Shown here: positions 4,946 through 25,425 of the stretch, one piece after another
How positions within the stretch are numbered: position 1 is the stretch's first letter
Layout of the letters: each line of letters starts with the position of its first letter
Origin: Clostridia bacterium
GTDB taxonomy: Bacteria > Bacillota > Clostridia > Oscillospirales > CAG-272
Reading direction: 5' to 3'
Assembly: GCA_029007295.1 (NCBI GenBank)
Contig: JAQXHN010000056.1
Span: 1 to 35,049 of the forward strand
Length of the DNA: 35,049 nucleotides
Notes under the pieces: generated by a model
Seen by the model: the letters and a program-made list of their open reading frames with translations, nothing else
Databases searched by the model: none
What the model was told of the DNA's origin: nothing
Translations under genes and position numbers: made by a program

Positions 4946-5893
4946 GTGAAAAAGCCTCTGCTTATGCTTGCTCCCATGGCAGGATTTTCGGACAAGGCAA
5001 TGAGAAAAATTTGTTCCGATATGGGATGTGATATTGCCGTTTCCGAAATGGTTTCCGCAAAAGCAATACACTACAAAGACAGCAAGACCGACACGCTTGC
5101 CGAGCTTGACGATATTCAATGCTCTCAGGCCATACAGATTTTCGGCTCCGACGCCGAGATTATGGCAGAGGCCGCAGAATATCTGTGCGCAAAATATAAT
5201 CCCGATTATATTGATATAAACATGGGCTGTCCCGTTAAAAAAATTTCCGGCAACGGAGACGGCGCCGCACTCATGAAGGAGCCCGTTAAAGCCGCAGGAA
5301 TTGTCAGTGCCGTTGCAAAATCGGTAAAAACCCCTGTCAGCGTTAAAATTCGCTCGGGATGGGACGACAGCTCAAAAAATGCGCCGGAATTTGCAAAAAG
5401 AATGGAAGCAAGCGGCGCAGCTTTAATTACCGTTCACGGAAGAACAAAGCAGCAGATGTATTCATTACCGGTAGATACCGATATTATTGCCGAGGTAAAA
5501 AAATCAGTTTCAGTTCCCGTTATTGCAAACGGCGGAATAAATTCGGTTGACGATGCCGTAAACATGCTTAACCGAACCGGATGCGACGGATTAGCCTTAG
5601 CAAGAGGAGTAATCGGCAATCCGTGGCTGTTTTCAAATATACGTTCCTATTTCTTAGGCAAGCCTTTGACTATTCCAACCGTAAAAAACAGAATCGAAAC
5701 GGCAGAAAAACATCTGAAGCTTGAAATTCAAAATAAAGGCGAGCTGACTGGAGTGCGTGAATCAAAGTCCGTCATCGGTCATTATCTTTTCGGCTTAAAA
5801 GGCGCGGCTTTTGCAAGAATGAAAATCAATATGTCAGAATCCGCAAACGAAATATTTGAAATTCTTAAATTTATTCTTACAGAAAATAATTGA
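4946..5893 (+). CDS. dusB: tRNA-dihydrouridine synthase (DusB-like)
   Basis: This FMN-dependent enzyme reduces specific uridines in the tRNA D-loop to dihydrouridine in the cytoplasm. The 315-residue protein starts MKKPLLMLAPMAGFSD, the conserved FMN-binding opening of the Dus TIM barrel. It carries YIDINMGCPVKKI with the catalytic cysteine, VKIRSGWDD, the phosphate-contacting ITVHGRTKQQMY, and VIANGGINSVDDA followed by DGLALARGVIGNPWLF. The start is GTG at 4946 with AGGAG ten bases upstream. It forms its own unit, with a promoter before it and a terminator after it. The DusB class is the usual bacterial type in Firmicutes, but the exact modified position is not readable here. Confidence 0.93.
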   Translation: MKKPLLMLAPMAGFSDKAMRKICSDMGCDIAVSEMVSAKAIHYKDSKTDTLAELDDIQCSQAIQIFGSDAEIMAEAAEYLCAKYNPDYIDINMGCPVKKISGNGDGAALMKEPVKAAGIVSAVAKSVKTPVSVKIRSGWDDSSKNAPEFAKRMEASGAALITVHGRTKQQMYSLPVDTDIIAEVKKSVSVPVIANGGINSVDDAVNMLNRTGCDGLALARGVIGNPWLFSNIRSYFLGKPLTIPTVKNRIETAEKHLKLEIQNKGELTGVRESKSVIGHYLFGLKGAAFARMKINMSESANEIFEILKFILTENN

Positions 5894-5917
5894 TTGTACT
5901 ATATTTCCCAAAATTTT

Positions 5918-5945
5918 AAAGCGCCCTGTTTTACAGGGTGCTTTT
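5918..5945. terminator. Bidirectional terminator between dusB and rnj
   Basis: AAAGCGCCCTG and CAGGGTGCTTT (one G-T pair) form an 11-bp stem around the loop TTTTA. It ends in TTTT on the plus strand, and the flanking A/T tracts allow use in both directions. It lies between two convergent genes. Confidence 0.75.
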
Positions 5946-5978
5946 AAGTTAAATATAAAACGTTATCTAAACAGAAAT

Positions 5979-7679
5979 TCAGATGTTCATAATTATGGGA
6001 ATTATCATTGGGCGACGCTTGGTCTGTCCGTAAACATATTTTGACAGTTCGTCCTTAACCTTGTTCTTCAGCTGAGTCCAATCCACTATATTGTTATCAA
6101 GACAATTCAGCAACGTATCCGTGCAGATATTTCTTGCCTCCTCCATCAGTTCCTCGGATTCTCTGACATATACAAATCCTCTCGAAACAATGTCGGGGCC
6201 CGATAACAGTATTCTTTCATTGATATCAACGCTTGCAACGACAATAATAATACCGTCCTGAGAAAGCAATTTTCTGTCGCGAAGCACAATACTGCCTACA
6301 TCTCCTATACCGTAACCGTCAATCAATACTCTTCCCGACTGAACGCTTCCGGTAATTTTAGCTTCGTTTTTGTCAAATTCAAGAACCTGTCCCAAATCAA
6401 GAACGAAAATATCATCGTCGCTTTCTCCCATTTCTTCGGCAAGCTCCTTATGCTGCATTAAATGCTTATACTCACCGTGAACGGGAACAAAATATTTCGG
6501 TTTAGTCAATGCGTGCATCAATTTTATTTCTTCACGGCAGGCATGTCCCGACACATGTACTTCAACATCCGCATCATGAAAAACGCAAACGCCGTTTCTG
6601 TAAAACTCGTTAAGTATTTTATCAACAAGCTTTTCGTTTCCCGGAATTGCATGTGCGGAAATAACAACCAAATCTTTATTGCCGAGTTTAATTTGAGCAT
6701 GGTCTCCGAACGCCATTCTGTAAAGCGCAGACATAGGCTCGCCCTGACTTCCCGTGGTAATTACCGTTACGTTTTCGGGTGCGAACTTATTAATTTCATT
6801 CATATCTATTATCAGTCCGGCAGGAACATTCATGTAACCCAGCTCGATAGCGGCCTTAACTATATTCAGCATGCTTCTTCCCGTTATCGCGACCTTACGG
6901 TTATAAACCGCACTGGTATTAATAATTTGCTGAACACGGTGTACGTTGGACGAAAATGTAGCTACTACGATTCTCTTGTCCTTATTTCTGTGGAAAATGT
7001 TAGACAGCGACGCACCTACTGTTTTTTCGGAGGGCGTATAGCCGGAATGCTCGACATTGGTTGATTCGCACATCAAAAGGGATACGCCGTTTTTACCTAA
7101 CTCGCTTAATCTCGCAATATCCATAACCTCGCCCTCGATAGGCGTCAAATCAAGCTTAAAGTCGCCGGAATGTACAATCACACCCTGCGGCGTATCGATA
7201 GCCAGAGCGCACGCATCGGCAATGGAGTGGTTAACACGGATAAATTCAACGCTGAATGCGCCGGCGTCAACGACGTCTCCCGCGGCAATGCAGAAAAGCT
7301 TTGCGCTGTCAAGAAGATTGTGCTCTATCAATTTATTTTTAAGTATACCGATAGTTAATCTCGTTCCGTAAACCGGAACATTTAATTCCCTGAGCACATA
7401 AGGCAGAGCGCCTATGTGATCCTCGTGTCCGTGAGTTAAAAATATACCTCTTATTTTTTCACTGTTCTTTTCAAGGTATGTCACATCAGGAATTACCGAG
7501 TCTATACCGAGCATATCGTCGTCCGGAAAGCCCATTCCGCAATCTATTACTATTAAATCGTCCTCGTATTCTATAACCGTCATATTTTTGCCGATTTCGC
7601 CCAAGCCTCCGAGACCGATGACCTTAACTTTGGACAAATTCTGCAACTGCTGTTTATTTGTTTTTTTCTTTCTTGCCAT
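5979..7679 (-). CDS. rnj: Ribonuclease J
   Basis: This is a metallo-beta-lactamase/beta-CASP nuclease with endonuclease and 5'-3' exonuclease activity, central to mRNA decay and rRNA maturation in Firmicutes. The zinc motif HGHEDHIG is at about residues 83-90, within LTHGHEDHIGALPYVLR. Other family landmarks are the HSGDFKLD run, ITTGSQGEPMSAL in the beta-CASP region, and VPVHGEYKHLMQH, which supplies a late metal-binding histidine. The start at ATG 7679 (566 residues, beginning MARKKKTN) has GAAAGGA five bases upstream. A start 13 codons earlier lacks a site. Only one RNase J is present in the window, so J1 versus J2 is not assigned. The gene has a long structured leader. Confidence 0.95.
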   Translation of the reverse strand: MARKKKTNKQQLQNLSKVKVIGLGGLGEIGKNMTVIEYEDDLIVIDCGMGFPDDDMLGIDSVIPDVTYLEKNSEKIRGIFLTHGHEDHIGALPYVLRELNVPVYGTRLTIGILKNKLIEHNLLDSAKLFCIAAGDVVDAGAFSVEFIRVNHSIADACALAIDTPQGVIVHSGDFKLDLTPIEGEVMDIARLSELGKNGVSLLMCESTNVEHSGYTPSEKTVGASLSNIFHRNKDKRIVVATFSSNVHRVQQIINTSAVYNRKVAITGRSMLNIVKAAIELGYMNVPAGLIIDMNEINKFAPENVTVITTGSQGEPMSALYRMAFGDHAQIKLGNKDLVVISAHAIPGNEKLVDKILNEFYRNGVCVFHDADVEVHVSGHACREEIKLMHALTKPKYFVPVHGEYKHLMQHKELAEEMGESDDDIFVLDLGQVLEFDKNEAKITGSVQSGRVLIDGYGIGDVGSIVLRDRKLLSQDGIIIVVASVDINERILLSGPDIVSRGFVYVRESEELMEEARNICTDTLLNCLDNNIVDWTQLKNKVKDELSKYVYGQTKRRPMIIPIIMNI

Positions 7680-9141: not shown

Positions 9142-10014
9142 ATGAAAAAAGTTACCAAAGCCGTTATTCCGGCAGCCGGTCTCGGCACCCGAATGTTGCC
9201 CATTGCGAGAAGCGTTCCGAAAGAAGTATTACCTATAGTCGACAGACCCGTCATGGAATATCTCGTAAGAGAAGCCGTTGACAGCGGAATTAAGGACATT
9301 CTTATCATTACTAACCGAGGAAAAGGGGTTATCGAGGATTACTTCGATCACTCTCCCGAATATGAAGATAAACTCCGTGCCAAGGGTAAGCTTGATGAAA
9401 TTGAAGCCATGAGAGAGCTTACCTCCAAGGCTAACATCTATTTCATACGTCAGAAAGAGCCCAAGGGTCTCGGTCATGCCATTTCATGTGCTAAGGCATT
9501 TACAGGCGACGATCCGTTTTGCGTGCTTTACGGAGACGATGTTATTGCTTCCGAGGTTCCGGTATGCAGGCAGTTAATTTGCGCTTATGACAAATACGGT
9601 CTGGGCGTTGCCGGAGTAAACCGAGTAACGGACGAGCAAATTGTAAAATACTGTTCGCTTAAGGTTGATCCTATCGAAAATAACGAATACAAGGTAAGCG
9701 ATATGATTGAAAAGCCGAAAATCGAGCAGAAATTCAGTAATTTTTCAATTCTCGGAAGGGTTCTTTTAACAAGCGACATATACGATATTCTCGACCGTAC
9801 CGAGCCCGGAGCCGGAAATGAAATTCAGTTAACAGATGCAATGAGGGAGCTTTGCCGGACAAAAGGTATGACGGCAGTTGAATTTGAGGGAACGAGATAC
9901 GATATGGGTTCAAAGCTCGGCTTCCTCTACGCAAATGTTGAATATGCGCTCAGACATCCCGAATTATCAGAGCCCTTTAAGGCATATCTTCGGGAATTGA
10001 CAAAAACTCTGTAA
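9142..10014 (+). CDS. galU: UTP-glucose-1-phosphate uridylyltransferase
   Basis: GalU makes UDP-glucose from UTP and glucose-1-phosphate in the cytoplasm, supplying cell-wall, capsule and glycolipid synthesis. The 290-residue protein opens with VTKAVIPAAGLGTRMLPI, the nucleotide-binding loop, and KEVLPIVDRPVMEYLV. FIRQKEPKGLGHAI and LYGDDVI are the central substrate-binding motifs. GNEIQLTDAM and GTRYDMGSKLGFLYANV are typical of the C-terminal half. AGGAG lies about 11 bases before the ATG. It is the first gene of the long operon. A membrane glucosyltransferase later in the same operon could use sugars derived from its product, but that link is inferred. Confidence 0.96.
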   Translation: MKKVTKAVIPAAGLGTRMLPIARSVPKEVLPIVDRPVMEYLVREAVDSGIKDILIITNRGKGVIEDYFDHSPEYEDKLRAKGKLDEIEAMRELTSKANIYFIRQKEPKGLGHAISCAKAFTGDDPFCVLYGDDVIASEVPVCRQLICAYDKYGLGVAGVNRVTDEQIVKYCSLKVDPIENNEYKVSDMIEKPKIEQKFSNFSILGRVLLTSDIYDILDRTEPGAGNEIQLTDAMRELCRTKGMTAVEFEGTRYDMGSKLGFLYANVEYALRHPELSEPFKAYLRELTKTL

Positions 10015-10036
10015 TGTAAATAAGGAATTATACGAG

Positions 10037-10525
10037 ATGGAAAGAGTTTCAAAGACAAACTATTATCTTGATATTGCTCAGACAGTAGCCGAACGCAGCA
10101 CATGTTTACGACGTCACTTCGGAGCTATTATAGTTAAAGACGATTCCATTGTTTCTACCGGCTATAACGGCGCTCCGCGAGGCAGAGAAAACTGTTCCGA
10201 TATCGGTCACTGTTACCGTGAAGCTCTCGGTATTCCGAGAGGCGAACGCTATGAGCTTTGCAGAAGCGTTCACGCAGAGGCAAATGCGATTATTGCCGCT
10301 TCGTATCAGCAAACGCAGGGCGCAACGCTATATCTTGCCTGCACCGATCCGAAAACGGGAAAGATTCAGCCGAGCACAAATTCCTGCTCGATGTGCAAAA
10401 GGTTTATTATCAATTCAGGCATCAAAAAGGTTATCGTCCGTGAAACAAAGGACACCTTCTCGGAGTATGATGTCGAAAAATGGGTTATTGATGATGACAG
10501 CATTTCCGGAAAATTCGGCTATTGA
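10037..10525 (+). CDS. Deoxycytidylate (dCMP) deaminase
   Basis: This zinc enzyme deaminates dCMP to dUMP for thymidylate synthesis. The 162-residue protein has the catalytic zinc motif HAEANAI (H79, E81) and the paired cysteines of SCSMCKR (C117, C120), together with GAIIVKDDSIVSTGYNGAPRG typical of dCMP deaminases. Extra cysteines near 53, 59 and 75 fit the structural zinc seen in phage-type family members. AAGGA lies ten bases before ATG 10037, and galU ends 22 bases upstream. Homologs are often called ComEB in Bacillus, but nothing here supports a competence role. Confidence 0.92.
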   Translation: MERVSKTNYYLDIAQTVAERSTCLRRHFGAIIVKDDSIVSTGYNGAPRGRENCSDIGHCYREALGIPRGERYELCRSVHAEANAIIAASYQQTQGATLYLACTDPKTGKIQPSTNSCSMCKRFIINSGIKKVIVRETKDTFSEYDVEKWVIDDDSISGKFGY

Positions 10526-10565
10526 AATTTCGGCTGTAAAATCGCTTACAAAGGAACCGACCGTA

Positions 10566-11039
10566 TTGACCCATAAATTACCGTTGCAGGATTTTAAACT
10601 GAAAAAAATTTGCTTTGTCTGCACCGGTAATACCTGCCGTTCTCCTATGGCTGCGGCAGTGGCAAATGAATTGGGACGGAATATCGGCATTACCGCAGTT
10701 TCCGCAGGGTTGTTTCCGAATGTCGGTGAAAAAATCTCCGAGAACGCTCTTATCGCTCTGTCAAAAGCAGGCTTTAAGCCCGTCGAAGGAAACATGTTTG
10801 TCAATCATAGAGCGATACCTCTGACAAAGGAAATCTTAATTCAATGCGACTGCGTTATCGGTATTACCGAAAGTCATTTCATGACTATGTTAAGAGCCTT
10901 TCCATCATACGCCCAAAAGCTTTCCGTAATGCCGAAAAACATCCGGGATCCTTACGGATGCGATATTAAAGAATACGATAACTGTCTTCTTGAAATAACA
11001 AAAGGTGTAAAGGAGCTGCTCGGAATTGAAAATAATTAA
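10566..11039 (+). CDS. Low-molecular-weight phosphatase, YwlE-like (candidate protein-arginine phosphatase)
   Basis: This is a cytoplasmic phosphatase of the LMW-PTP fold. The P-loop reads VCTGNTCRSP (CX5R), and the general-acid DP motif is in IRDPYGCDIKEYDN. The threonine at the fifth P-loop position matches Bacillus YwlE, where that residue favours phospho-arginine over phospho-tyrosine. This suggests but does not prove arginine specificity. The start is uncertain. I mark TTG 10566 (157 residues, AAGGA ten bases upstream). A CTG at 10599, with AGGA seven bases upstream, would give a protein starting exactly where relatives start. ATG codons at 10491/10494 overlap the previous gene and lack a site. 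The 3' end overlaps rimI. Confidence 0.85.
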   Translation: MTHKLPLQDFKLKKICFVCTGNTCRSPMAAAVANELGRNIGITAVSAGLFPNVGEKISENALIALSKAGFKPVEGNMFVNHRAIPLTKEILIQCDCVIGITESHFMTMLRAFPSYAQKLSVMPKNIRDPYGCDIKEYDNCLLEITKGVKELLGIENN

Positions 11040-11460
11040 AGCCCGCGCCTGCGATTTAGACATTATTGCCGATTTTGAAAACAAATATTTTTCGCATCCT
11101 TACTCCAAAGAGTTGATTATTAAAACTCTTAAAAACGAGAATTATCTTATTGTTATTGCAACAAAAGACGGATCTCATGCCGGTTATGCGGAATTCGGAT
11201 ATTTCATCGACAGCGTGTCTGTTGACAGGGTATGTGTGTCATACGGCTTTAGACGTCAGGGTATTGCAAAAATGCTTCTTGCCGAAGGCGAAAAATGGGC
11301 AAAACGGCTAATGTGTAATACGATGACCCTTGAGGTGAGGAGTCAAAATTCAGCCGCCGTTGCGCTTTATGAAAAGTCAGGATACATTTTATGCTCAAGG
11401 CGCAGCCATTATTACACCTGTCCAAAGGACGACGCTTTGATATATACAAAACTACTGTAG
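11026..11460 (+). CDS. rimI: GNAT acetyltransferase, RimI-like
   Basis: This 144-residue acetyl-CoA-dependent N-acetyltransferase is of the type that acetylates the N-terminal alanine of ribosomal protein S18. Motif A is VSYGFRRQGIAKMLL, containing the RRQGIA acetyl-CoA loop. The C-terminal TLEVRSQNSAAVALYEKSGY is a RimI hallmark. The start is TTG at 11026 inside the last codons of the preceding phosphatase gene, with AAGGAG about 11 bases upstream, so translation is probably coupled. Location just before tsaD is the common bacterial arrangement and supports the RimI name. The usual partners tsaB and tsaE are not adjacent. Actual substrate is inferred. Confidence 0.85.
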   Translation: MKIIKARACDLDIIADFENKYFSHPYSKELIIKTLKNENYLIVIATKDGSHAGYAEFGYFIDSVSVDRVCVSYGFRRQGIAKMLLAEGEKWAKRLMCNTMTLEVRSQNSAAVALYEKSGYILCSRRSHYYTCPKDDALIYTKLL

Positions 11461-16321: not shown

Positions 16322-17899
16322 ATGATAAGAACAGAAAAAAAGGAAAATAATATTTTTTCAGGAATTTCGGTTTCGGCTAAAACCGCATTTATTGCTTGCT
16401 TTGCTGCGGGGCTTTTGGTTCATTTATTTGCATTTACCAATATTATCCCAAATTCAGACGGGCTTTCACGCGTGTACGATACTCAGCAGATGACCGTTTC
16501 GGGAAGGTGGTTTTTGCATTATGCGTCATATCTTAACGGCTTTATTCAAGCCCCCTCGCTGATCGGTTTGATTTCCGTTTTCTTTTTCTCGATTTCAAGT
16601 GCACTGACATGTGAAATACTTAATATTAAAAGCCGGTTGTTTTCGGCATTATGCGGAATCACAATGGTTGTATTTCCCTGTGTTTCATATACGTATATGT
16701 ACATGTTTACCGCTTCTGCCTACTCAGTCGGCGTTTTTCTTGCCGTCATTTCGGTATATCTTTGCAGAAGGTATAAATTCGGATTTATTGCCGGTATTAT
16801 TCCCCTTGCCCTTGCTACCGGAACATATCAGGCGTATTTTTCGGTAGCTTCGTCGCTTTGCGTTTGTGTGCTGATGCTTGATATTTTCTCAAGCGAAAAA
16901 ACGTCTGGCATACTGAAAAAAGCGGGAAAATACCTGTTATTTCTTTTCGGCGGAATTTCTCTTTACTATATAATTCTGAAAATATTTCTTTCGGTAAAGC
17001 AATTAAAGCTCCTGTCATATCTTGGTATGAGCTCACTTTCCCTCTCGCCGAAAGCGATTTTTTCCGGTATAGTCAGCGTATATAAACAGTTTGTTCTTTC
17101 ATTCTTTGTTCCGAATCGGGAACCCGGCGTGAATGCAGCGTGGGTATTTATCAACATTTTGGTTTTATCGGCGTTTATTGGCGCACTTACCGTTTTAATA
17201 CGAAAAAACAAATCCAAAATCTCCGTTTCAAAAATATTAATTCTTCTTTTTCTGATTGCATTATTCCCTGTTTGCTCAAACGTAATGGGAATCCTGTCAT
17301 ACGCAACGCCGATAATGAAATATGCTTATGTACTTGCATACGTTCTTGTTATGGCAATGTGCTCGATGTCATTTAACGGAATCGGTTTTACCTTATTATC
17401 TCCCGTTTCCCTCGTAACGCTGATATTCTCCGCCGTTATTATGCTTTCCGCACAAACCGACAATACGATTTATACGGCGTCGGCAACAGCTATGCGAGCA
17501 ACGCAAACCTTTGCGTCAAATCTTGTCAGCCGTGTCGAGTCGCTTGACGGTTATAAAAGCGATATGGAGGTTGTAATAATCGGAGTATTTCCCAATGATA
17601 CATATTATAATGAAAATATCGGATTTGATTATATCGAGCATTACAGTGCCGACCCATCGTCCGCAATACTGAGGAATAAACATATTTATTATTATCTGAA
17701 TGACTGGCTGAACGTTCCGTGGTCAATGCCCGAAGAGCAAACCTTAATTACGGTTTCCGAGAGTGATGAATTTAAAAAAATGCCTCTCTATCCTTCCTCG
17801 GGAAGCGTTAAGCTTATTGATGGCAGGGTTGTAGTTCGTTTATCGGAGGAATATACTCCGCTTGAGCAATATGAAATAGACTACGAAAACAGACATTGA
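16322..17899 (+). CDS. Multi-pass membrane glucosyltransferase-like protein (GtrII family)
   Basis: This 525-residue integral membrane protein has about eleven to twelve hydrophobic segments up to residue 395, then a hydrophilic C-terminal domain of about 125 residues. The N-terminal SDGLSRVYDTQQMTVSGRW (acidic loop after TM1) and the internal ATGTYQAYFSVA resemble GtrII-type GT-C enzymes, which move glucose from a lipid carrier to surface polysaccharide on the outer face of the membrane. CGGAGAATGCA precedes the ATG, 15 bases after dnaI. It begins the four-gene membrane/signalling portion of the operon. Acceptor and donor are not determined, and the family call rests on motif memory. Confidence 0.72.
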   Translation: MIRTEKKENNIFSGISVSAKTAFIACFAAGLLVHLFAFTNIIPNSDGLSRVYDTQQMTVSGRWFLHYASYLNGFIQAPSLIGLISVFFFSISSALTCEILNIKSRLFSALCGITMVVFPCVSYTYMYMFTASAYSVGVFLAVISVYLCRRYKFGFIAGIIPLALATGTYQAYFSVASSLCVCVLMLDIFSSEKTSGILKKAGKYLLFLFGGISLYYIILKIFLSVKQLKLLSYLGMSSLSLSPKAIFSGIVSVYKQFVLSFFVPNREPGVNAAWVFINILVLSAFIGALTVLIRKNKSKISVSKILILLFLIALFPVCSNVMGILSYATPIMKYAYVLAYVLVMAMCSMSFNGIGFTLLSPVSLVTLIFSAVIMLSAQTDNTIYTASATAMRATQTFASNLVSRVESLDGYKSDMEVVIIGVFPNDTYYNENIGFDYIEHYSADPSSAILRNKHIYYYLNDWLNVPWSMPEEQTLITVSESDEFKKMPLYPSSGSVKLIDGRVVVRLSEEYTPLEQYEIDYENRH

Positions 17900-17905
17900 A
17901 AATTT

Positions 17906-19702
17906 ATGAAAATTTTTTCACCGGATAAAGATACTTCAAATGATGAAAATATCTTAAGCAATATATTCAAACGATTTTATTTCAGCTCCGTTTTGGCAAT
18001 TATATGCTCCTGCCTGGGTCAGATTGTTGGAAACATAGTTGTCGGAAATACTCTCGGAGAAGATAAGCTTTCCGTCATGTCGCTGGTCTTGCCTGTTTAC
18101 TATATTTTTGCAACAATCGGAAATATGACGGGCATCGGCGGAAGCGCACTATGCGGTAAATTCATAGGCAAATTGAAGCACGATGATTGCAAAAAGGCGT
18201 ATACCGTTTGCTGTATTTTTACACTGCTTGTATGCGCTCTGTTTTCAGTTATTATTCTTTTGTTTTTAAATCCCGCGGTCGACTTGCTTGGAACGCCCCA
18301 AAGCATTAAAAAAGAAGTCAGGGATTATCTCTTTGTTATGGTTTTATCCGGTCCGTTTATTGCAGGCATATACATCTATTTTAATATGCTTCGCCTTGAC
18401 GGAAAGCCGATTGCCACAACTATGACGTTTATTATTATGGCAGGCATAAATGTTATACTTGATTTTGCTTTGTCGTTCTTAGGTATATTGGGAGTTGCCA
18501 TTGCTTACTCAACGGGAGTTATAAGCGCAACTTTTTTCGGCTTACTCATGACGAGAAACAGTCAGTCTCTCAAATTTACCAAGGTAAGCTTAAAAGAATT
18601 TTTCCGTTATACCTTTGAAATTTTGAAAACCGGCTCTCCCGGAGCGACAGAAAATGCGTCCATATTATTCAGAAGCTACATATTAAATCAGATGATTGTA
18701 GCATATGTCGGCGCTTTTACATTGTCGACGTTTTCCGTTATCAGCTCTGTTAATTCTTTTTCAATGTCAATAACGGTAGGCTGTGCCGGCTCTCTTGTTC
18801 CGATTATCAGTATTTTTGCGTCTGAAAAAGATAATGTCAGTATACGAAGAGTTTTGAAAAACGCTTTGAGAACTGCCGGAGCCGTTCTTCTTGCATTTAT
18901 TCTTATACTTATAGTTTTTTCACCTCAGCTTGCCTCGCTTTTCGGCGTTGGCTCCGCTTTAAATAAAACGGCCAAGGCAATTCGAATTTTCGCATTTTCT
19001 CTTCCTTTCGCTTTATTTGCAAATGTAGCCGTCTATTTCTTTCTTGCCAATTCGAAAACCGTAATTTCTAATATACTGACCTTTTTGCACTCCTTTGTAT
19101 ATCCGCTGATCTTCGCTTTGTATTTGATGAATATTATGAGCGTAAACGGATTGTGGCTTTCCTTTGCGGCATGCGAGGGCGCAACCGTTCTTACGGTTCC
19201 CATACTTAATTATTTTGCAAGAAGAAAGAATCCTAATTTGTCTCCTGTTTTGCTGCTTGACTCTTCATATGAGAAAAACGGCAATGCAATAGATATGAGC
19301 ATTAAGGACGATGATATCAGCATTTCAAAGGCGGTTGAAAAGCTCGGCGAATTCTGTGATTCAAACGGCATTGAACCTAAAAAAAGCATGATTATTACCC
19401 TTTCAATGGACGAAATGCTTCACATGGCGTCAAAATATTCAACGTCAAAATCAAATAATCATGTAATTTCGATAAGGGTATTGATTTCTCCTACCGTGCT
19501 TGTTTTGCGGCTTCGTTATGAGGGCGCCGTATTTAATCCCGTTTCATACTATGAAAACAATAAAAAAGACGCAAAGGATATTGACGCCATGCTCGAAATG
19601 GGTGATTGCTTAGGCATGGCAATGGTTACAAAAGCGTGTGATGTTGTAAATTACAGAACAACATTCGGAATAAACAATTTATCTATTTTAATTTATGATT
19701 AG
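17906..19702 (+). CDS. MATE-family transporter fused to a degenerate RsbW-like HATPase domain
   Basis: Residues about 20-440 form a twelve-segment MATE/MOP-type transporter (QIVGNIVVGNTLGEDKLSVMSL, GIGGSALCGKFIGK, LRLDGKPIATTM, EILKTGSPGATENASILFRS). Residues about 460-598 form a cytoplasmic tail resembling the anti-sigma-factor/RsbW histidine-kinase-like ATPase fold: IITLSMDEMLHMASKYS in the N-box position, RYEGAVFNPVSYY where DxGxxFxP is expected, and LGMAMVTKACDVVNYRTTFGINNLSI as the terminal strand-helix unit. The N-box asparagine is Met507 and the DxG aspartate is Tyr538, so ATP binding is probably lost or altered. There is no clear ribosome-binding site; it starts six bases after the previous stop. 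Substrate is unknown. Confidence 0.85.
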   Translation: MKIFSPDKDTSNDENILSNIFKRFYFSSVLAIICSCLGQIVGNIVVGNTLGEDKLSVMSLVLPVYYIFATIGNMTGIGGSALCGKFIGKLKHDDCKKAYTVCCIFTLLVCALFSVIILLFLNPAVDLLGTPQSIKKEVRDYLFVMVLSGPFIAGIYIYFNMLRLDGKPIATTMTFIIMAGINVILDFALSFLGILGVAIAYSTGVISATFFGLLMTRNSQSLKFTKVSLKEFFRYTFEILKTGSPGATENASILFRSYILNQMIVAYVGAFTLSTFSVISSVNSFSMSITVGCAGSLVPIISIFASEKDNVSIRRVLKNALRTAGAVLLAFILILIVFSPQLASLFGVGSALNKTAKAIRIFAFSLPFALFANVAVYFFLANSKTVISNILTFLHSFVYPLIFALYLMNIMSVNGLWLSFAACEGATVLTVPILNYFARRKNPNLSPVLLLDSSYEKNGNAIDMSIKDDDISISKAVEKLGEFCDSNGIEPKKSMIITLSMDEMLHMASKYSTSKSNNHVISIRVLISPTVLVLRLRYEGAVFNPVSYYENNKKDAKDIDAMLEMGDCLGMAMVTKACDVVNYRTTFGINNLSILIYD

Positions 19703-20435
19703 AATGAATTTCAGAAAAGATAACGATATAATTACCGTACGACCCGCTGAATTATCCGACGCTAAGACAATCGGCAAAATGTATAAAGCTATTGCAGTAA
19801 CGGATGATAATTACAGACTTGTGCTCTCTGACGGAGAAAAATCCTTTTCAAAGAGGGGCGGTATGTTTGAAATACCGTCGGAAGAAGAAATAATAAAAAT
19901 AATTGAAGATGATAGGTATAAAATAAATGTCGGAGAATATAACGGCTTTGCCGACTCGGTTATATGGTATACTATGCCCGACAGATATACGTATTCTACA
20001 CTAAAGCCGGATTCGGGCAGTGAAGATAAGGTATCTTTTGTCTTATCAAATCTTGAAACCGGAAAGCTCGGTCTCGGTAAAGAAATTATTTCAACCTGCA
20101 CAAATCCCCACATAGCTCCGTATGCTTTGTTCTGCTTTATGATGTACGATTATTTCACTAACAAGGTGCCCTATATGACAGGCGAAGTATATACGGTCAA
20201 TTCATATGAAGATTCTCGCGGAATAACCTATTGCAATTTATTGAATATTCCTTCGTTTAACGTTCTTTCCAAAAGCTCCGGTTTCCTTATCGGTCATACA
20301 GCTCCGAAAACGGTAAAATTTAACACCTTTACCGTAAATATTACTCCTAACGTGTTCTTTTGGGACACCGAAAAGGCATTTAATACAACAAAGGAAATTC
20401 TTTACTCCAAGGGCTGGATAATTAATGATATATAA
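19695..20435 (+). CDS. Divergent GNAT-like protein
   Basis: The 246-residue soluble protein opens with IITVRPAELSDAKTIGKMYKAI, a usual GNAT beginning, and has GEVYTVNSYEDSRGITYCNLLNIPS followed by LSKSSGFLIGHTAP, resembling the beta4-alpha4 to beta6 end of the fold. It lacks a clear Q/RxxGxG/A acetyl-CoA loop, so catalytic activity is doubtful. A long insertion (about 35-110) is rich in charged residues. The ATG at 19695 overlaps the MATE-HATPase stop. A second ATG at 19704 would follow the stop by one base. Neither has a strong site, so translation is likely coupled. Its position between transporter and phosphatase suggests a part in the same device; function is unknown. Confidence 0.65.
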   Translation: MIRMNFRKDNDIITVRPAELSDAKTIGKMYKAIAVTDDNYRLVLSDGEKSFSKRGGMFEIPSEEEIIKIIEDDRYKINVGEYNGFADSVIWYTMPDRYTYSTLKPDSGSEDKVSFVLSNLETGKLGLGKEIISTCTNPHIAPYALFCFMMYDYFTNKVPYMTGEVYTVNSYEDSRGITYCNLLNIPSFNVLSKSSGFLIGHTAPKTVKFNTFTVNITPNVFFWDTEKAFNTTKEILYSKGWIINDI

Positions 20436-20446
20436 AGGGCATGGCT

Positions 20447-22498
20447 ATGAACAAAGATTTTAAGATTAAAAAAAGCATTCAAAAAAAACTCGTTAAAAGA
20501 ATTGCCGTACTTTTACTGATTACGGTTGTCCTATCGCTGACATTCAGCGAAATAACGATGATAATTCTTCGCAAAAAGAACGAAAATCTTCTTGTTGACC
20601 GAGCAATAGAATCGTCTACCGTATTTACCGAAGGTCAGTCCGAAAAAATCAGCGAACAGATTTCCGGAATTGTGTCAAATGTACGTCTAGCTTCTCAATA
20701 TGCCGAAAATATTTACAAGAACCCCGATTATTTTTCACCGCATCCTATTATGACTCCTAAGGAATTCCCGTCTGATACAACCGGAAATACATTTCACTGG
20801 ATTCCCTATTTCAAGGACGAGATAAACAATCCCGAAATTGTGGGAGAAGCAGAAAAATTAACCGCCTTAGAGCCTGTTTTTGAAGCCATTATGAGAGACA
20901 GTCCTATGATAGTCAGCTTGTATGTCGCAACGAATACTCATATTAATATAGGATACGATCAAAATGTTCTTTTAAAGCTTGTTGACGAATATAATCCTGA
21001 GGAATCGGGCGCTCTGTGGTATACTGCGGTTATGGATACGCATGAGCAGTTTATTTCCGATACCTATACCGATTCGTTCGACAGAGGATTGACGGTAACT
21101 ATTTCCGAGCCTTATTATGTGGACGGAGAAATCAGAGGCGTTATCGGAGCCGATATTATTATTGAGAATATCGCAAACAACATACTGAATATAGACACCG
21201 GAACAAAGGACGGCTATGCAATGCTTTTTTCCGATGAAGGGTATCCGATATGCGCAAAAGGCATGAATGAAAATACAACCTCCCTTCAATTACTCGGCAA
21301 TGAGAAAAATGTTAGGGAAATCGCAGAAAATCAAAACGGAATTATCAAGACAACCCTTAAAGGAAAAGAGGTATATATAATTTACGACACTATAGAATAT
21401 ACCGATTGGACATTTGCAGTCGTTCTCGATGTAGACAGTATTATTGCGCCGGCAAAGGAATCCTCGCGTTATATTATGAAAACAATACTTCTTTTGCTTG
21501 CAATTAATGCAGTCATATTTACGGTAATGATATTTTATGCAAAAAAAGACGCATACAGCCTTTCGGCTCCCATAATTCAGCTTACAAACGACGTTAAAAA
21601 AATCGGCGACGGTCAGCTGGATTACTCGTCTTCAATTAAAACAGCCGACGAAATAGAATTACTGAGCCGTTCGTTTGAAGATATGACGGTTTCGCTTAAG
21701 CAATATATTGAAAACTTAACTTCAATCACAAAAGAAAAGGAACGAATAGGAGCCGAGCTTGACGTTGCGGCTCATATCCAGTCCTCTATGCTACCGTGCA
21801 TCTTCCCTGCTTTTCCCGATTCCAACGAATTCGATATTTACGCAACGATGAATCCGGCAAAGGAGGTCGGCGGCGACTTTTATGACTTCTTTATGGTTGA
21901 CGATACGCATATAGCTATAGTAATGGCGGATGTTTCCGGTAAGGGAATTCCGGCGGCCTTATTTATGGTTATCGGCAAAACACTGATAAAGGATCATACC
22001 CGCTGCGACTGCGACCTCGGTGAGGTTTTCACCACGGTTAACAATCTGCTTTGCGAATCAAACAGCGAGGGCTTGTTTATTACTGCCTTTGAGGGTGTTC
22101 TCGACATAGTTACCGGTGAATTTAAATTTGTAAATGCAGGTCACGAAATGCCTTATATTTCAAAGAAGGGTTCTCCCTTTGAGCCGTATAAAATTAAACC
22201 CGGATTTGTTCTTGCAGGTATGGAAGATATTCAGTACAAGGCAGGCTCAATGATGTTAGAGCCCGGAGATAAAATATTCCAGTATACCGACGGCATTACG
22301 GAAGCTACAAATGAAAATAACGAGCTTTACGGCATGGACAGACTGACAAACGTTCTTGCCGAGTGTTCAAAAAAACCTCCGAGCGAAATTCTGCCTTATG
22401 TAAAGCAGGATATAGACAAATTTGTCAAAGACGCCCAGCAGTTTGACGACATTACCATGCTTTGCCTTGAATACAAATCGAAGAAAAATATTCAATAA
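20447..22498 (+). CDS. Membrane-bound Cache-HAMP-PP2C phosphatase (RsbU/SpoIIE type)
   Basis: This is a receptor phosphatase of the type that dephosphorylates a STAS anti-anti-sigma protein in partner switching. Order in 683 residues: TM1 (about 17-40), extracellular Cache-like sensor (about 43-338), TM2 (about 343-365), HAMP (about 366-420, PIIQLTNDVKKIGDGQLDY), short helix (EKERIGAELDVAAHIQSSMLP), then SpoIIE/PP2C domain (about 463-678). The metal-binding motifs are intact: EVGGDFYDFF, ADVSGKGIPAALFM, YTDGITEATN and FDDITMLCLE. The start is placed at 20447 because AAAGGG lies seven bases upstream; the ATG at 20441 is one base from it. It ends the operon before a strong terminator. No STAS-domain partner is present in the window. 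Confidence 0.9.
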   Translation: MNKDFKIKKSIQKKLVKRIAVLLLITVVLSLTFSEITMIILRKKNENLLVDRAIESSTVFTEGQSEKISEQISGIVSNVRLASQYAENIYKNPDYFSPHPIMTPKEFPSDTTGNTFHWIPYFKDEINNPEIVGEAEKLTALEPVFEAIMRDSPMIVSLYVATNTHINIGYDQNVLLKLVDEYNPEESGALWYTAVMDTHEQFISDTYTDSFDRGLTVTISEPYYVDGEIRGVIGADIIIENIANNILNIDTGTKDGYAMLFSDEGYPICAKGMNENTTSLQLLGNEKNVREIAENQNGIIKTTLKGKEVYIIYDTIEYTDWTFAVVLDVDSIIAPAKESSRYIMKTILLLLAINAVIFTVMIFYAKKDAYSLSAPIIQLTNDVKKIGDGQLDYSSSIKTADEIELLSRSFEDMTVSLKQYIENLTSITKEKERIGAELDVAAHIQSSMLPCIFPAFPDSNEFDIYATMNPAKEVGGDFYDFFMVDDTHIAIVMADVSGKGIPAALFMVIGKTLIKDHTRCDCDLGEVFTTVNNLLCESNSEGLFITAFEGVLDIVTGEFKFVNAGHEMPYISKKGSPFEPYKIKPGFVLAGMEDIQYKAGSMMLEPGDKIFQYTDGITEATNENNELYGMDRLTNVLAECSKKPPSEILPYVKQDIDKFVKDAQQFDDITMLCLEYKSKKNIQ

Positions 22499-22715: not shown

Positions 22716-22744
22716 TTGACATAATTTGAATATTTTGCTATAAT
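22716..22744 (+). promoter_or_regulatory. Sigma-A promoter for alaS
   Basis: TTGACA (22716-22721), a 17-base spacer and TATAAT (22739-22744) are both perfect hexamers. The predicted start near 22751 leaves a leader of about 32 bases, too short for a T-box. The stretch 22543-22715 between the terminator and this promoter is AT-rich and holds nothing else I can support. Confidence 0.9.
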
Positions 22745-22782: not shown

Positions 22783-25425
22783 ATGAAATGGACAGGACTT
22801 AACGAACTGCGTGAAGCTTTCCTTTCCTTCTATGAATCAAAGGAGCATCTTCGTCACAAGAGCTTTCCGTTAGTTCCTATAAATGATAAATCATTGCTTT
22901 TAATCAATGCGGGTATGGCGCCGCTTAAAAAATATTTTACAGGAGAGCAGGAGCCGCCCCGTCACCGTATGACTACCTGTCAAAAATGTATACGCACACC
23001 CGATATTGAGCGCGTAGGATTGACCGCAAGACACGGTACTTACTTTGAGATGCTGGGCAACTTCTCATTCGGCGACTACTTTAAGACCGAGGCAATTCAT
23101 TGGGCTTGGGAATTTGTTACTACCGTACTTGAGTTGCCTAAAGAAAAGCTTTGGACTACCATTTACGAAAATGATGATGAAGCATTTAAAATTTGGAACG
23201 AAGAAATAGGTATGCCCAAAGAGCATATTGTCCGCTTGGGAAAGGACGACAATTTCTGGGAAATCGGTTCGGGACCGTGCGGTCCCTGTTCCGAGATTTA
23301 CTTTGACAGGGGAGAAGAATACGGTTGTGGCTCGCCGGATTGCAAGCCCGGTTGCGATTGCGACAGATATATGGAATTCTGGAACCTCGTATTTACTCAG
23401 TTTGACGGAGACGGAAACGGAAATTACACGCCGCTTGATCATCCAAACATTGACACCGGAATGGGCCTTGAGCGTCTTGCTTGCTTAATGCAGGGTGTTA
23501 ACAATCTGTTTGAAGTTGACACTGTACAGAATATTATGTCCGCCGTATCAGCTAAAGCCAAAGTTAAATACGGCGACTCGGAAAAAACAGATATTTCGCT
23601 TCGTATTATTACCGACCACATCCGTTCAACGACATTTCTTGTGGGCGATGGCGTTGTTCCGACAAACGAAGGAAGAGGCTATGTTCTCCGCCGACTTTTA
23701 AGACGCGCAGCCCGTCACGGCAGGCTGCTCGGAATTAAGGGTCCCTTCCTTTACGAAATTGCTGATGTTGTCGCAAAGGAAAACATTTCCGAATATGAAG
23801 AGCTTACCGAAAAGCTTGATTATATTAAAAAGGTTATTCGCACAGAGGAAGAGCGCTTTGCTCAGACTATCGACCAGGGTATGGAAATTCTTTCCGAGGT
23901 TATCGAAAAAACAAAGGCGGACGGTAAGAGCGTTATTCCCGGCGAAGCAATATTCAAGCTCGGTGACACATACGGTTTCCCGATTGATTTGACAAGAGAA
24001 ATTGCGCAGGAAAATGCGCTTACACTCGATGAAGAAGGCTTCAATACTCTTCTCACAGAACAAAAGGAAAGAGCAAGAAATGCAAGAGCAAAGCTCGGCG
24101 ACTTCGGCTGGACCGGCGAAAGCTTTGATTTCATCGAAGGACTCGCTGTTACCGAATTTACAGGTTACACCGAAAACCAGTCAAGTGCTTGCGTTATCGG
24201 GTTATTCAATGCAGAAACCACCGAAGCTGTTGACAATGCAACGGAAGGTAAGGTTATCGTAGTACTCGACAAAACTCCGTTTTACGGCGAAGGCGGCGGA
24301 CAGGTTGGCGACACAGGCATTATCGCAACCGACAACGCCTCGCTCAAGGTTCTTGATACAAAGAAGCACGACGGCGTATTTATGCATGTTTGTGAAATAG
24401 AAAGCGGAATGATTTCAAAGAACGATACCGTAAGAGCTGAAATTGATGTTGAAAGAAGAAATGCGATTCGCCGCAATCATACCTCGGCTCACTTGCTTCA
24501 GGCAGCTTTGCGCCGGGTTCTCGGCAATCATGTTGAGCAGGCAGGCTCTTATGTGGATGAAAAAAGACTCCGTTTTGACTTCTCGCACTTTACGGCAGTA
24601 ACTCCTGAGGAGCTGGCGCTTGTTGAAAAGTCGGTAAATGACGAAATTCTACTCGGAGAAGCCGTTGATACTATCGAAACGGACATTGACACAGCAAAGG
24701 CTATGGGGGCTATGGCTTTGTTCGGCGAAAAGTACGGCAAGACCGTTCGTATGGTTAAAGCCGGAGATTATTCAACCGAGCTTTGCGGAGGCACTCATCT
24801 TGACAATACCGCAAAAGCCGGATTATTTAAAATTATTTCGGAATCCTCCGTTGCCGCCGGAGTTCGACGCATTGAAGCAACAACAGGCTTCGGGGTTCTT
24901 GAATTTCTTGCCGAAAAGGATACCTTGATTGCCGAGACCGCTTCGGAATTAAAGGTTGCAAATCCTGTAGATATGCCTAAGCGAGCTTTAGCGCTGCAGA
25001 CGGAGCTTAAAAACGAGAAGCACGAAATTGAAGCGCTTAATGCGAAAATTGCGGCAGCCAAAGCTTCGGAATTGCTTTCGGGCGGTAAAAAAATAGGAGA
25101 GCTGACGCTAATCACCGACAAGACAAGCGCAATGCCTTTGGACGTTGTCCGTACAATGTGCGACAACGCTAAGGCAAATGACGATAATATCATCATTGTG
25201 CTTGCCACCGACTGTGACGGAAAGCAAAATCTTGTTTGCGTTTGCGGTAAGAACGCCGTTAAATCAGGCGCTAACGCCGGAAAGATAGCAAAACAGGCAA
25301 GCGCAGTTACAGGCGGTAACGGCGGAGGACGTCCGGACAGTGCTGTTTCCGGTATTAAGGACTCATCCCTTGTTGACAAGGCTTTGGAAGCCGTATACGG
25401 TATCGTTTGCGATATGATAAAGTAA
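22783..25425 (+). CDS. alaS: Alanyl-tRNA synthetase
   Basis: AlaS charges tRNA-Ala and edits mischarged Ser and Gly. The 880-residue length is normal. The class II catalytic core begins MKWTGLNELREAFLSFYESK, with MAPLKKYFTGEQEPP and FEMLGNFSFGDYFK; YVLRRLLRRAARHGR is the tRNA-recognition helix region. The editing domain has HTSAH (H566, H570) and CGGTH (C668, H672), which bind zinc. The C-Ala domain ends with GGNGGGRPDSAVSG. GGAGG precedes the ATG. The gene is monocistronic or shares read-through with the GTPase gene downstream, from which it is separated by a palindrome. Confidence 0.98.
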   Translation: MKWTGLNELREAFLSFYESKEHLRHKSFPLVPINDKSLLLINAGMAPLKKYFTGEQEPPRHRMTTCQKCIRTPDIERVGLTARHGTYFEMLGNFSFGDYFKTEAIHWAWEFVTTVLELPKEKLWTTIYENDDEAFKIWNEEIGMPKEHIVRLGKDDNFWEIGSGPCGPCSEIYFDRGEEYGCGSPDCKPGCDCDRYMEFWNLVFTQFDGDGNGNYTPLDHPNIDTGMGLERLACLMQGVNNLFEVDTVQNIMSAVSAKAKVKYGDSEKTDISLRIITDHIRSTTFLVGDGVVPTNEGRGYVLRRLLRRAARHGRLLGIKGPFLYEIADVVAKENISEYEELTEKLDYIKKVIRTEEERFAQTIDQGMEILSEVIEKTKADGKSVIPGEAIFKLGDTYGFPIDLTREIAQENALTLDEEGFNTLLTEQKERARNARAKLGDFGWTGESFDFIEGLAVTEFTGYTENQSSACVIGLFNAETTEAVDNATEGKVIVVLDKTPFYGEGGGQVGDTGIIATDNASLKVLDTKKHDGVFMHVCEIESGMISKNDTVRAEIDVERRNAIRRNHTSAHLLQAALRRVLGNHVEQAGSYVDEKRLRFDFSHFTAVTPEELALVEKSVNDEILLGEAVDTIETDIDTAKAMGAMALFGEKYGKTVRMVKAGDYSTELCGGTHLDNTAKAGLFKIISESSVAAGVRRIEATTGFGVLEFLAEKDTLIAETASELKVANPVDMPKRALALQTELKNEKHEIEALNAKIAAAKASELLSGGKKIGELTLITDKTSAMPLDVVRTMCDNAKANDDNIIIVLATDCDGKQNLVCVCGKNAVKSGANAGKIAKQASAVTGGNGGGRPDSAVSGIKDSSLVDKALEAVYGIVCDMIK

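Follow-up and report, generated by a model that had tools for sequence, protein, structure and literature searches.

A MATE transporter with a degenerate RsbW-like tail: a candidate partner switch without a sigma factor in Clostridia

Known partner switches and the locus in the window

The best-known role of partner switches is to control sigma factors, and to our knowledge few other outputs have been established. The subject of this study is a set of three genes in a 35,049-nucleotide stretch of DNA (contig JAQXHN010000056.1, referred to here as the window) from a Clostridia bacterium, a relative of gut and rumen Clostridia. They encode a MATE transporter that ends in an RsbW-like tail, a divergent protein of the GNAT fold and a phosphatase with Cache, HAMP and PP2C domains. 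The RsbU-RsbV-RsbW and SpoIIE-SpoIIAA-SpoIIAB switches of Bacillus have in common with the system described here a sensor PP2C phosphatase, a STAS protein with a phosphorylated serine and an RsbW-type kinase with an intact ATP site, but here no sigma factor lies beside the module, and what is best called a degenerate RsbW-like domain is carried by a transporter.

Known partner switches end in a sigma factor or, in SiaABCD of Pseudomonas aeruginosa, in a diguanylate cyclase (PMC7647112). SiaABCD resembles the present locus in that its output is something other than a sigma factor (PMC7647112), and the window phosphatase finds its best NCBIfam match in SiaA, at 69.9 bits far under the cut-off of 700; its output is the diguanylate cyclase, the candidate output here a transporter, accompanied by GNAT and APH genes. 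Other single-domain STAS proteins depart from that pattern or have unknown targets (PMC10120452). In Mycobacterium smegmatis, RsbW3 is described as an RsbW paralogue acting as a partner of RsbW1 rather than as an anti-sigma kinase (PMC10950880); there it is a free protein acting on SigF control, whereas here the RsbW-like domain is fused to a transporter. A transporter joined to a domain of the partner-switch type is likewise seen in the SLC26/SulP family, and excerpts of a review devoted to STAS-only proteins mention transporters just in this form, with a fused STAS domain (PMC8256260). In that family, however, the STAS half is fused, while here it is the RsbW-like half, and the genomes concerned also encode phosphatase, kinase and STAS. 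The MATE transporters themselves (DinF/NorM and relatives) share the fold and the Pfam domain, to which an extra cytosolic tail of about 140 residues is added here. Searches of the open-licence PMC literature, judged mostly by titles and the opening lines of abstracts, listed no paper describing an RsbW-like domain on a MATE or an SDF protein.

We favour, with somewhat better than even confidence, a sigma-less partner switch with the transporter as its output, in which the Cache-PP2C phosphatase would dephosphorylate a STAS protein, which would then bind the MATE tail and switch transport. What can be read directly from the DNA is which genes make up the set, that the motifs of phosphatase, RsbW and STAS phospho-site are intact, that the tail has lost ATP-site residues, and that the neighbourhood is conserved and the parts co-occur.

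The degenerate tail and the other parts of the proposed switch

The tail is formed by the roughly 140 residues that follow the last membrane helix of the transporter and are predicted to be cytosolic (19250..19702 of the window, forward strand). Its match to HATPase_c_2 reached 17.8 bits, under the Pfam gathering cut-off of 27.4. The profile of 16 tails was matched to the profile of 12 stand-alone RsbW proteins with an hhalign probability of 96.9% (E 1.6e-10), as opposed to 0.1-0.2% in five control comparisons (STAS, GNAT, PP2C and APH with the RsbW profile, and STAS with the tail profile). In the AlphaFold model the secondary structure elements follow the order b-a-a-b-b-a-a-a-b-b, with predicted local distance difference test (pLDDT) means over 10 residues of 69-94. 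Against SpoIIAB structures the tail profile gave E values of 0.65-0.77, too weak for use alone, and the rows listed by VIA-align for the whole MATE-tail model named MATE/MOP only, by which the tail part was barely tested. The sequence-only reading had called the tail RsbW-like, and the RsbW-type profile match and the fold order bear this out rather than an unrelated fold.

The N-box Glu is kept in all 55 aligned tails and is Glu503 in the window protein. The N-box Asn and the G1 Asp, on the other hand, are kept in none of the 40 window-type tails (the window, P0002-P0022, L031-L047 without L035 and without the first copy of L040, L078 and L079), a set in which some of the P and L rows are very closely related. 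Both residues are retained in 12 of the 55 tails, termed group B (the first copy of L040, L080, L081, L084-L086 and L088-L093), and the G1 Asp alone in three (L082, L094, L095). In RsbW domains, whether stand-alone or fused, the N-box, G1 and G2 residues are intact in 39 of 39 (40 rows with one repeat). Because window-type tails have lost the ATP-site residues that the RsbW domains keep, 'degenerate RsbW domain' is the most fitting name for the window tail, which is probably not a kinase. The earlier idea of a kinase-like arm of a partner switch on a transporter thus stands as far as the kinship of the tail is concerned, but probably not as regards kinase activity, for which a separate intact RsbW is present in the genome. 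L040 carries two MATE-tail genes (3-1727 and 5164-6933) 3.4 kb apart, with N-box and G1 intact in one only.

The three genes, described from the sequence as overlapping or nearly touching, proved to be open reading frames exactly as read, with domains recognised by Pfam or by fold, all on the forward strand. The MATE-tail gene (17906-19702, 598 residues) contains the transporter domain at 17906..19255 (residues 1-450; Pfam MatE, E 2.2e-30), and the MATE fold was also matched. The GNAT-like gene (19695-20435, 246 residues) starts 8 nucleotides inside the end of the MATE gene, and the phosphatase gene (20441-22498, 685 residues) follows 5 nucleotides past it. The phosphatase comprises a dCache_1 sensor domain at 20855..21424 (residues 139-328; 69.9 bits, cut-off 45, E 3.1e-19), a HAMP domain at 21554..21700 (residues 372-420; 30 bits, cut-off 25, E 6.6e-07) and a PP2C/SpoIIE catalytic domain at 21899..22474 (Pfam SpoIIE, 149.8 bits, E 1.2e-43), found at the same position in the whole-genome search. 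All PP2C motifs are present (GGDFYD at 477, DVSGKG at 497, YTDG at 615, FDDIT at 668), and the metal-site residues are kept in 43 of 43 aligned domains, save one Asp at 41 of 43.

In two close relatives (L032 and L033), six genes run on one strand in the order STAS-APH, RsbW, STAS, MATE-tail, GNAT and Cache-PP2C. Their counterparts in the window genome (1.75 Mb in 60 contigs, 97.1% complete) show identities of 62% for STAS-APH, 55-59% for RsbW, 60-61% for STAS, 54-55% for MATE-tail, 29-31% for GNAT and 70-72% for the PP2C part. The first three are lone genes on separate contigs: STAS-APH on C43, RsbW on C31 and STAS on C18. The window genome holds three HATPase_c_2 proteins above the cut-off (C48, C31, C25) and three such STAS matches (C18, C48, C43). 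The C31 RsbW scores 72.3 bits with HATPase_c_2 and has the N-box, G1 and G2 residues intact; the C18 STAS scores 77.2 bits with ant_ant_sig (cut-off 53.45), and all 41 aligned STAS domains have the phospho-site Ser. Gene order and sigma match identify C48 as the SpoIIAA-SpoIIAB-SigF locus; compared with the six-gene run its SpoIIAA is only 22-24% identical and its SpoIIAB is without match. Since C18 and C31 match the run and SpoIIAA and SpoIIAB do so poorly or not at all, the C18 STAS is the best counterpart of the STAS adjoining MATE in close relatives, with the C31 RsbW as its likely kinase. This agrees with the earlier suggestion of a STAS protein encoded elsewhere. There are three SpoIIE-type phosphatases, on C56 (that of the window), C21 and C17; the third (L028 4731-5903, G000:C17) has 390 residues and adjoins a gene that is ferredoxin-like by eye.

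The whole-genome search gave no STAS or Sigma70_r4 match on the window contig, as had been read from the sequence for the surroundings of the module. Ten Sigma70_r4 matches were found in the genome, namely RpoD (two), SigE, SigG, SigK, SigF, an extracytoplasmic function (ECF) sigma factor, an ECF-like gene just below the superfamily cut-off, a YlxM homologue and a weak match on C51. Besides SigF and SigG, no SigB-type sigma factor is among the examined matches (all but that on C51, in a search for the Sigma70_r4 domain alone); SigG might, in principle, serve as a client of the switch. Among 126 genes beside tail modules, no sigma-factor family occurs in the 25 Pfam families listed of 105, and no family matches more than three of the genes; these proteins were drawn from longest-ORF (open reading frame) lists, and some are false frames. 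In the Anaerotruncus loci L036 and L037, RsbW is followed, at a distance of about 1.2-1.5 kb, by a gene judged ECF-like by eye.

Conservation and co-occurrence of the module

A scan of genome contigs for the module gave 17 loci. The PP2C gene lies 3' of MATE in 15 of them, the two exceptions (L035 and L040, the latter within the Cache part) being cut by contig ends, and a gene stands between MATE and PP2C in all 16 loci reaching that far. Among ten of these between-gene proteins, six matched Pfam GNAT above the cut-off, one below it, and three window-like ones were without match; homologues of the window GNAT hold this position in L031-L034, L078 and L079. RsbW is on the same piece as the tail in 10 of the 17 loci and STAS in 9; in L036 and L037, about 7 kb separate STAS from RsbW, and STAS is on the opposite strand. 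When the parts were searched by tblastn on 37 pieces with a tail (the 17 loci without L035, 20 pieces from the order survey described below and the window), 29 held PP2C and 19 held tail, PP2C, RsbW and STAS together. All four switch parts are present in Anaerotruncus colihominis DSM 17241 (L036) and Lachnospiraceae bacterium P6B14 (L042), whose complete sets make the proposed switch testable. The neighbourhood, on whose conservation the sequence-only reading had depended, is thus kept in relatives, and, judged from the genomes, the module is conserved beyond chance neighbours because gene order is conserved and the parts co-occur.

The order survey covered 197 genomes, with matches of at least 42 bits for the tail, at least 77 bits for the RsbW subfamily, at least 115 bits for the PP2C subfamily and at least 70 bits for stand-alone STAS. 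MATE-tail was found in 18 genomes of nine families, the MATE part being seen in all 18 (in G036 split over two frames, at about 9620-11300 on the reverse strand of L096, where a real split versus an assembly error is undecided). The RsbW subfamily occurs in 18 of 18 tail genomes as opposed to 43 of 197 overall (hypergeometric p 4e-14), the PP2C subfamily in 18 of 18 as opposed to 45 of 197 (p 1e-13), and stand-alone STAS in 16 of 18 as opposed to 42 of 197 (p 1e-10), all uncorrected for relatedness; STAS is missing in G169, and in G028 it is matched only more weakly, within a longer frame. The distance to the tail is at most 6 kb for PP2C in 14 of the 18 genomes and for RsbW in 13. The trio of RsbW, PP2C and STAS is present in 41 order genomes, 25 of them without a tail, so that the tail is nested within the trio genomes, the pattern expected of a switch client. 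A class survey of 391 genomes, which required tail matches of at least 46 bits outside frames of PP2C-RsbW size (G453, with a frame of 958, was dropped) and an E value up to 1e-15 for the RsbW subfamily, found the latter in 21 of 24 tail genomes and in 55 of 391 overall, the MATE part being unchecked in the 21 tail genomes outside the order survey.

A second transporter family is found in the same kind of locus. In L098 (7634-9211) and L107 (8993-10648), which hold STAS, PP2C and RsbW, an SDF symporter adjoins STAS, and its N-terminal domain matches the RsbW profile with an hhalign probability of 94.8% and is, by eye, without N-box Asn and G1 Asp. This SDF-borne domain occurs in 5 of the 197 order genomes, all five with the RsbW subfamily, and a database search with it gave 222 matches, with an SDF domain in 120 of the 120 listed. 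Because the SDF family bears a related domain in such loci, it provides the strongest hint that the domain may be a docking plug.

The switch genes also occur in other fusions. RsbW and PP2C, both arms of the switch, form one polypeptide in L080, L082, L093, L096, L103, L104 and L112-L114. STAS-APH-RsbW is a single protein of about 530 residues in L081, L089-L091, L110, L111 and L115-L117, its APH part being a TIGR02172-like phosphotransferase, whereas STAS-APH is a separate gene (C43) in the window genome.

The proposed switch and its alternatives

In the mechanism we propose, an outside ligand would alter the activity of the phosphatase via the Cache and HAMP domains. RsbW (C31) would phosphorylate two STAS targets, the stand-alone protein on C18 and the corresponding half of STAS-APH on C43, the phosphatase would reverse this, and unphosphorylated STAS would be shared between RsbW and the tail of the transporter. 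The tail with bound STAS might then relay the signal to MATE and turn transport on or off, and RsbW would reverse it. The cargo, or a co-regulated small molecule, may be modified by the GNAT protein and by the APH domain that is joined to the second STAS; because GNAT, APH and other small-molecule enzymes recur in the loci, a modified small molecule may well be what is transported. Since many relatives keep the three genes beside kinase-like and STAS genes, it is likely that the outside signal controls the exporter directly and not through gene expression. If true, a transporter with an RsbW-like half would be a new output class of partner switches, and a ligand outside the cell could control transport quickly and reversibly. 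Proteins that at present carry the name MATE efflux transporter, if any, would gain a role, and the occurrence in Clostridia of lone STAS and RsbW genes that have no SigB-type partner would be accounted for. More tentatively, and with slightly less than even confidence, RsbW-like domains without an ATP site could be standard docking plugs on transporters of unrelated folds (at the C-terminus of MATE, at the N-terminus of SDF), so that one phosphatase-STAS-RsbW switch would directly gate transport and small-molecule enzymes without a sigma factor; partner switching would then be a general means by which Clostridia control transport post-translationally.

Several observations weigh against the proposed switch. 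STAS and RsbW are unlinked to the module in the window genome, neither PP2C nor RsbW is within 6 kb of the tail in 4 of the 18 order genomes (G003, G015, G028, G047), and the RsbW subfamily is missing in 3 of the 24 class genomes with a tail (G515, G523, G546). The co-occurrence statistics ignore relatedness among genomes. L088 and L090 have their MATE-tail gene on the opposite strand to RsbW and PP2C, at a distance of about 4-5 kb. The subfamily of the gene that separates MATE from PP2C varies, with a formyltransferase at this place in L095 and no such gene in L080. In L110, a tail-less MATE adjoins STAS, PP2C and STAS-APH-RsbW, which speaks against a need for the tail, and some tails of the wider family would not be dead, since the twelve of group B keep both ATP-site residues.

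The tail might instead act on RsbW rather than on STAS, a heterodimer tethering or sequestering the kinase at the membrane in the manner of RsbW3-RsbW1 of M. smegmatis, the described precedent (PMC10950880). We regard this as unlikely. In its favour, the tail and RsbW are homologous, and the RsbW subfamily accompanies the tail in every order genome, stand-alone STAS in all but two, but SDF symporters bear the related domain at the opposite end of the protein and adjoin STAS. Slightly less probable still, the output could lie elsewhere, in GNAT, APH or an unseen regulator, with the MATE tail merely structural or ligand-sensing and the operon shared. The many trio genomes without a tail, the several kinds of enzymes in the same loci and the tail-less MATE of L110 would fit this; the kinship of the tail with the class of domain that is bound by STAS in known switches, and the RsbW subfamily in 18 of 18 order and 21 of 24 class tail genomes, do not. 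That the tail itself is a transporter-anchored STAS kinase is very improbable, the group B residues notwithstanding; an active kinase was considered for the window-type tails and thought unlikely, as none of the 40 retains either residue, and the genome has an intact RsbW of its own. The location of STAS and RsbW on other contigs would also be expected of functionally unlinked chance neighbours, an explanation with hardly any probability left in view of the order conserved in many relatives, the survey counts and the nine families spanned by the tail genomes of the order.

For the 246-residue protein encoded between transporter and phosphatase (19695..20435), the assignment as a divergent GNAT-like protein is upheld by its fold and by homologues in relatives. 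Its Pfam match is at chance level (E 0.18), but its AlphaFold model has the GNAT fold (pLDDT 90.9), with PaiA as the best Foldseek match (E 6.6e-07), and 46 of the 50 PDB matches listed are named acetyltransferases or transacylases; the remaining ones are an acyl-homoserine lactone synthase and two unnamed proteins. A clear Q/R-x-x-G-x-G/A motif, the acetyl-CoA-binding motif of GNAT acetyltransferases, was not recognised by eye in the window GNAT family. A protein search with the window GNAT gave a single match, 100% identical. None of the three window proteins was matched by PADLOC.

Further genes were noted beside the module in relatives. LPG_synthase_C proteins, which have a GNAT-related fold, are encoded directly 5' of the MATE-tail gene in L082 (12113-13003) and L094 (6815-7681), and genes that resemble HD-type (p)ppGpp hydrolases by eye lie near the switch genes in L032 (1096-1707), L033 (7445-8035) and L098 (5746-6276). 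Large genes resembling nonribosomal peptide synthetases by eye stand between STAS and PP2C in L098 (9575-13765) and L109 (10875-15140), with a condensation-type HHxxxDG motif, and one of them adjoins a phosphopantetheinyl-transferase-like gene (weak Pfam match). A family of about 200 residues without Pfam match adjoins STAS in L089 (12420-13037), L091 (5232-5816), L090, L110, L111, L115 and L117 and is fused to a glyoxalase domain in L080 (17836-19026); it was considered as another degenerate RsbW and dropped, with hhalign probabilities of 0.1% and 4%.

In the window itself, a GtrII-type membrane protein (Pfam Glucos_trans_II, 16322-17899) ends 6 nucleotides before the MATE gene; it was left out as a fourth member of the module, being unrecognised in the neighbourhood lists of relatives, where no dedicated GtrII search was made. 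Past the phosphatase gene, a perfect match to a sigma-70-type promoter (TTGACA-17-TATAAT with TG) is found at 22716-22744, just 5' of a gene at 22783 that encodes 880 residues and is alaS by eye.

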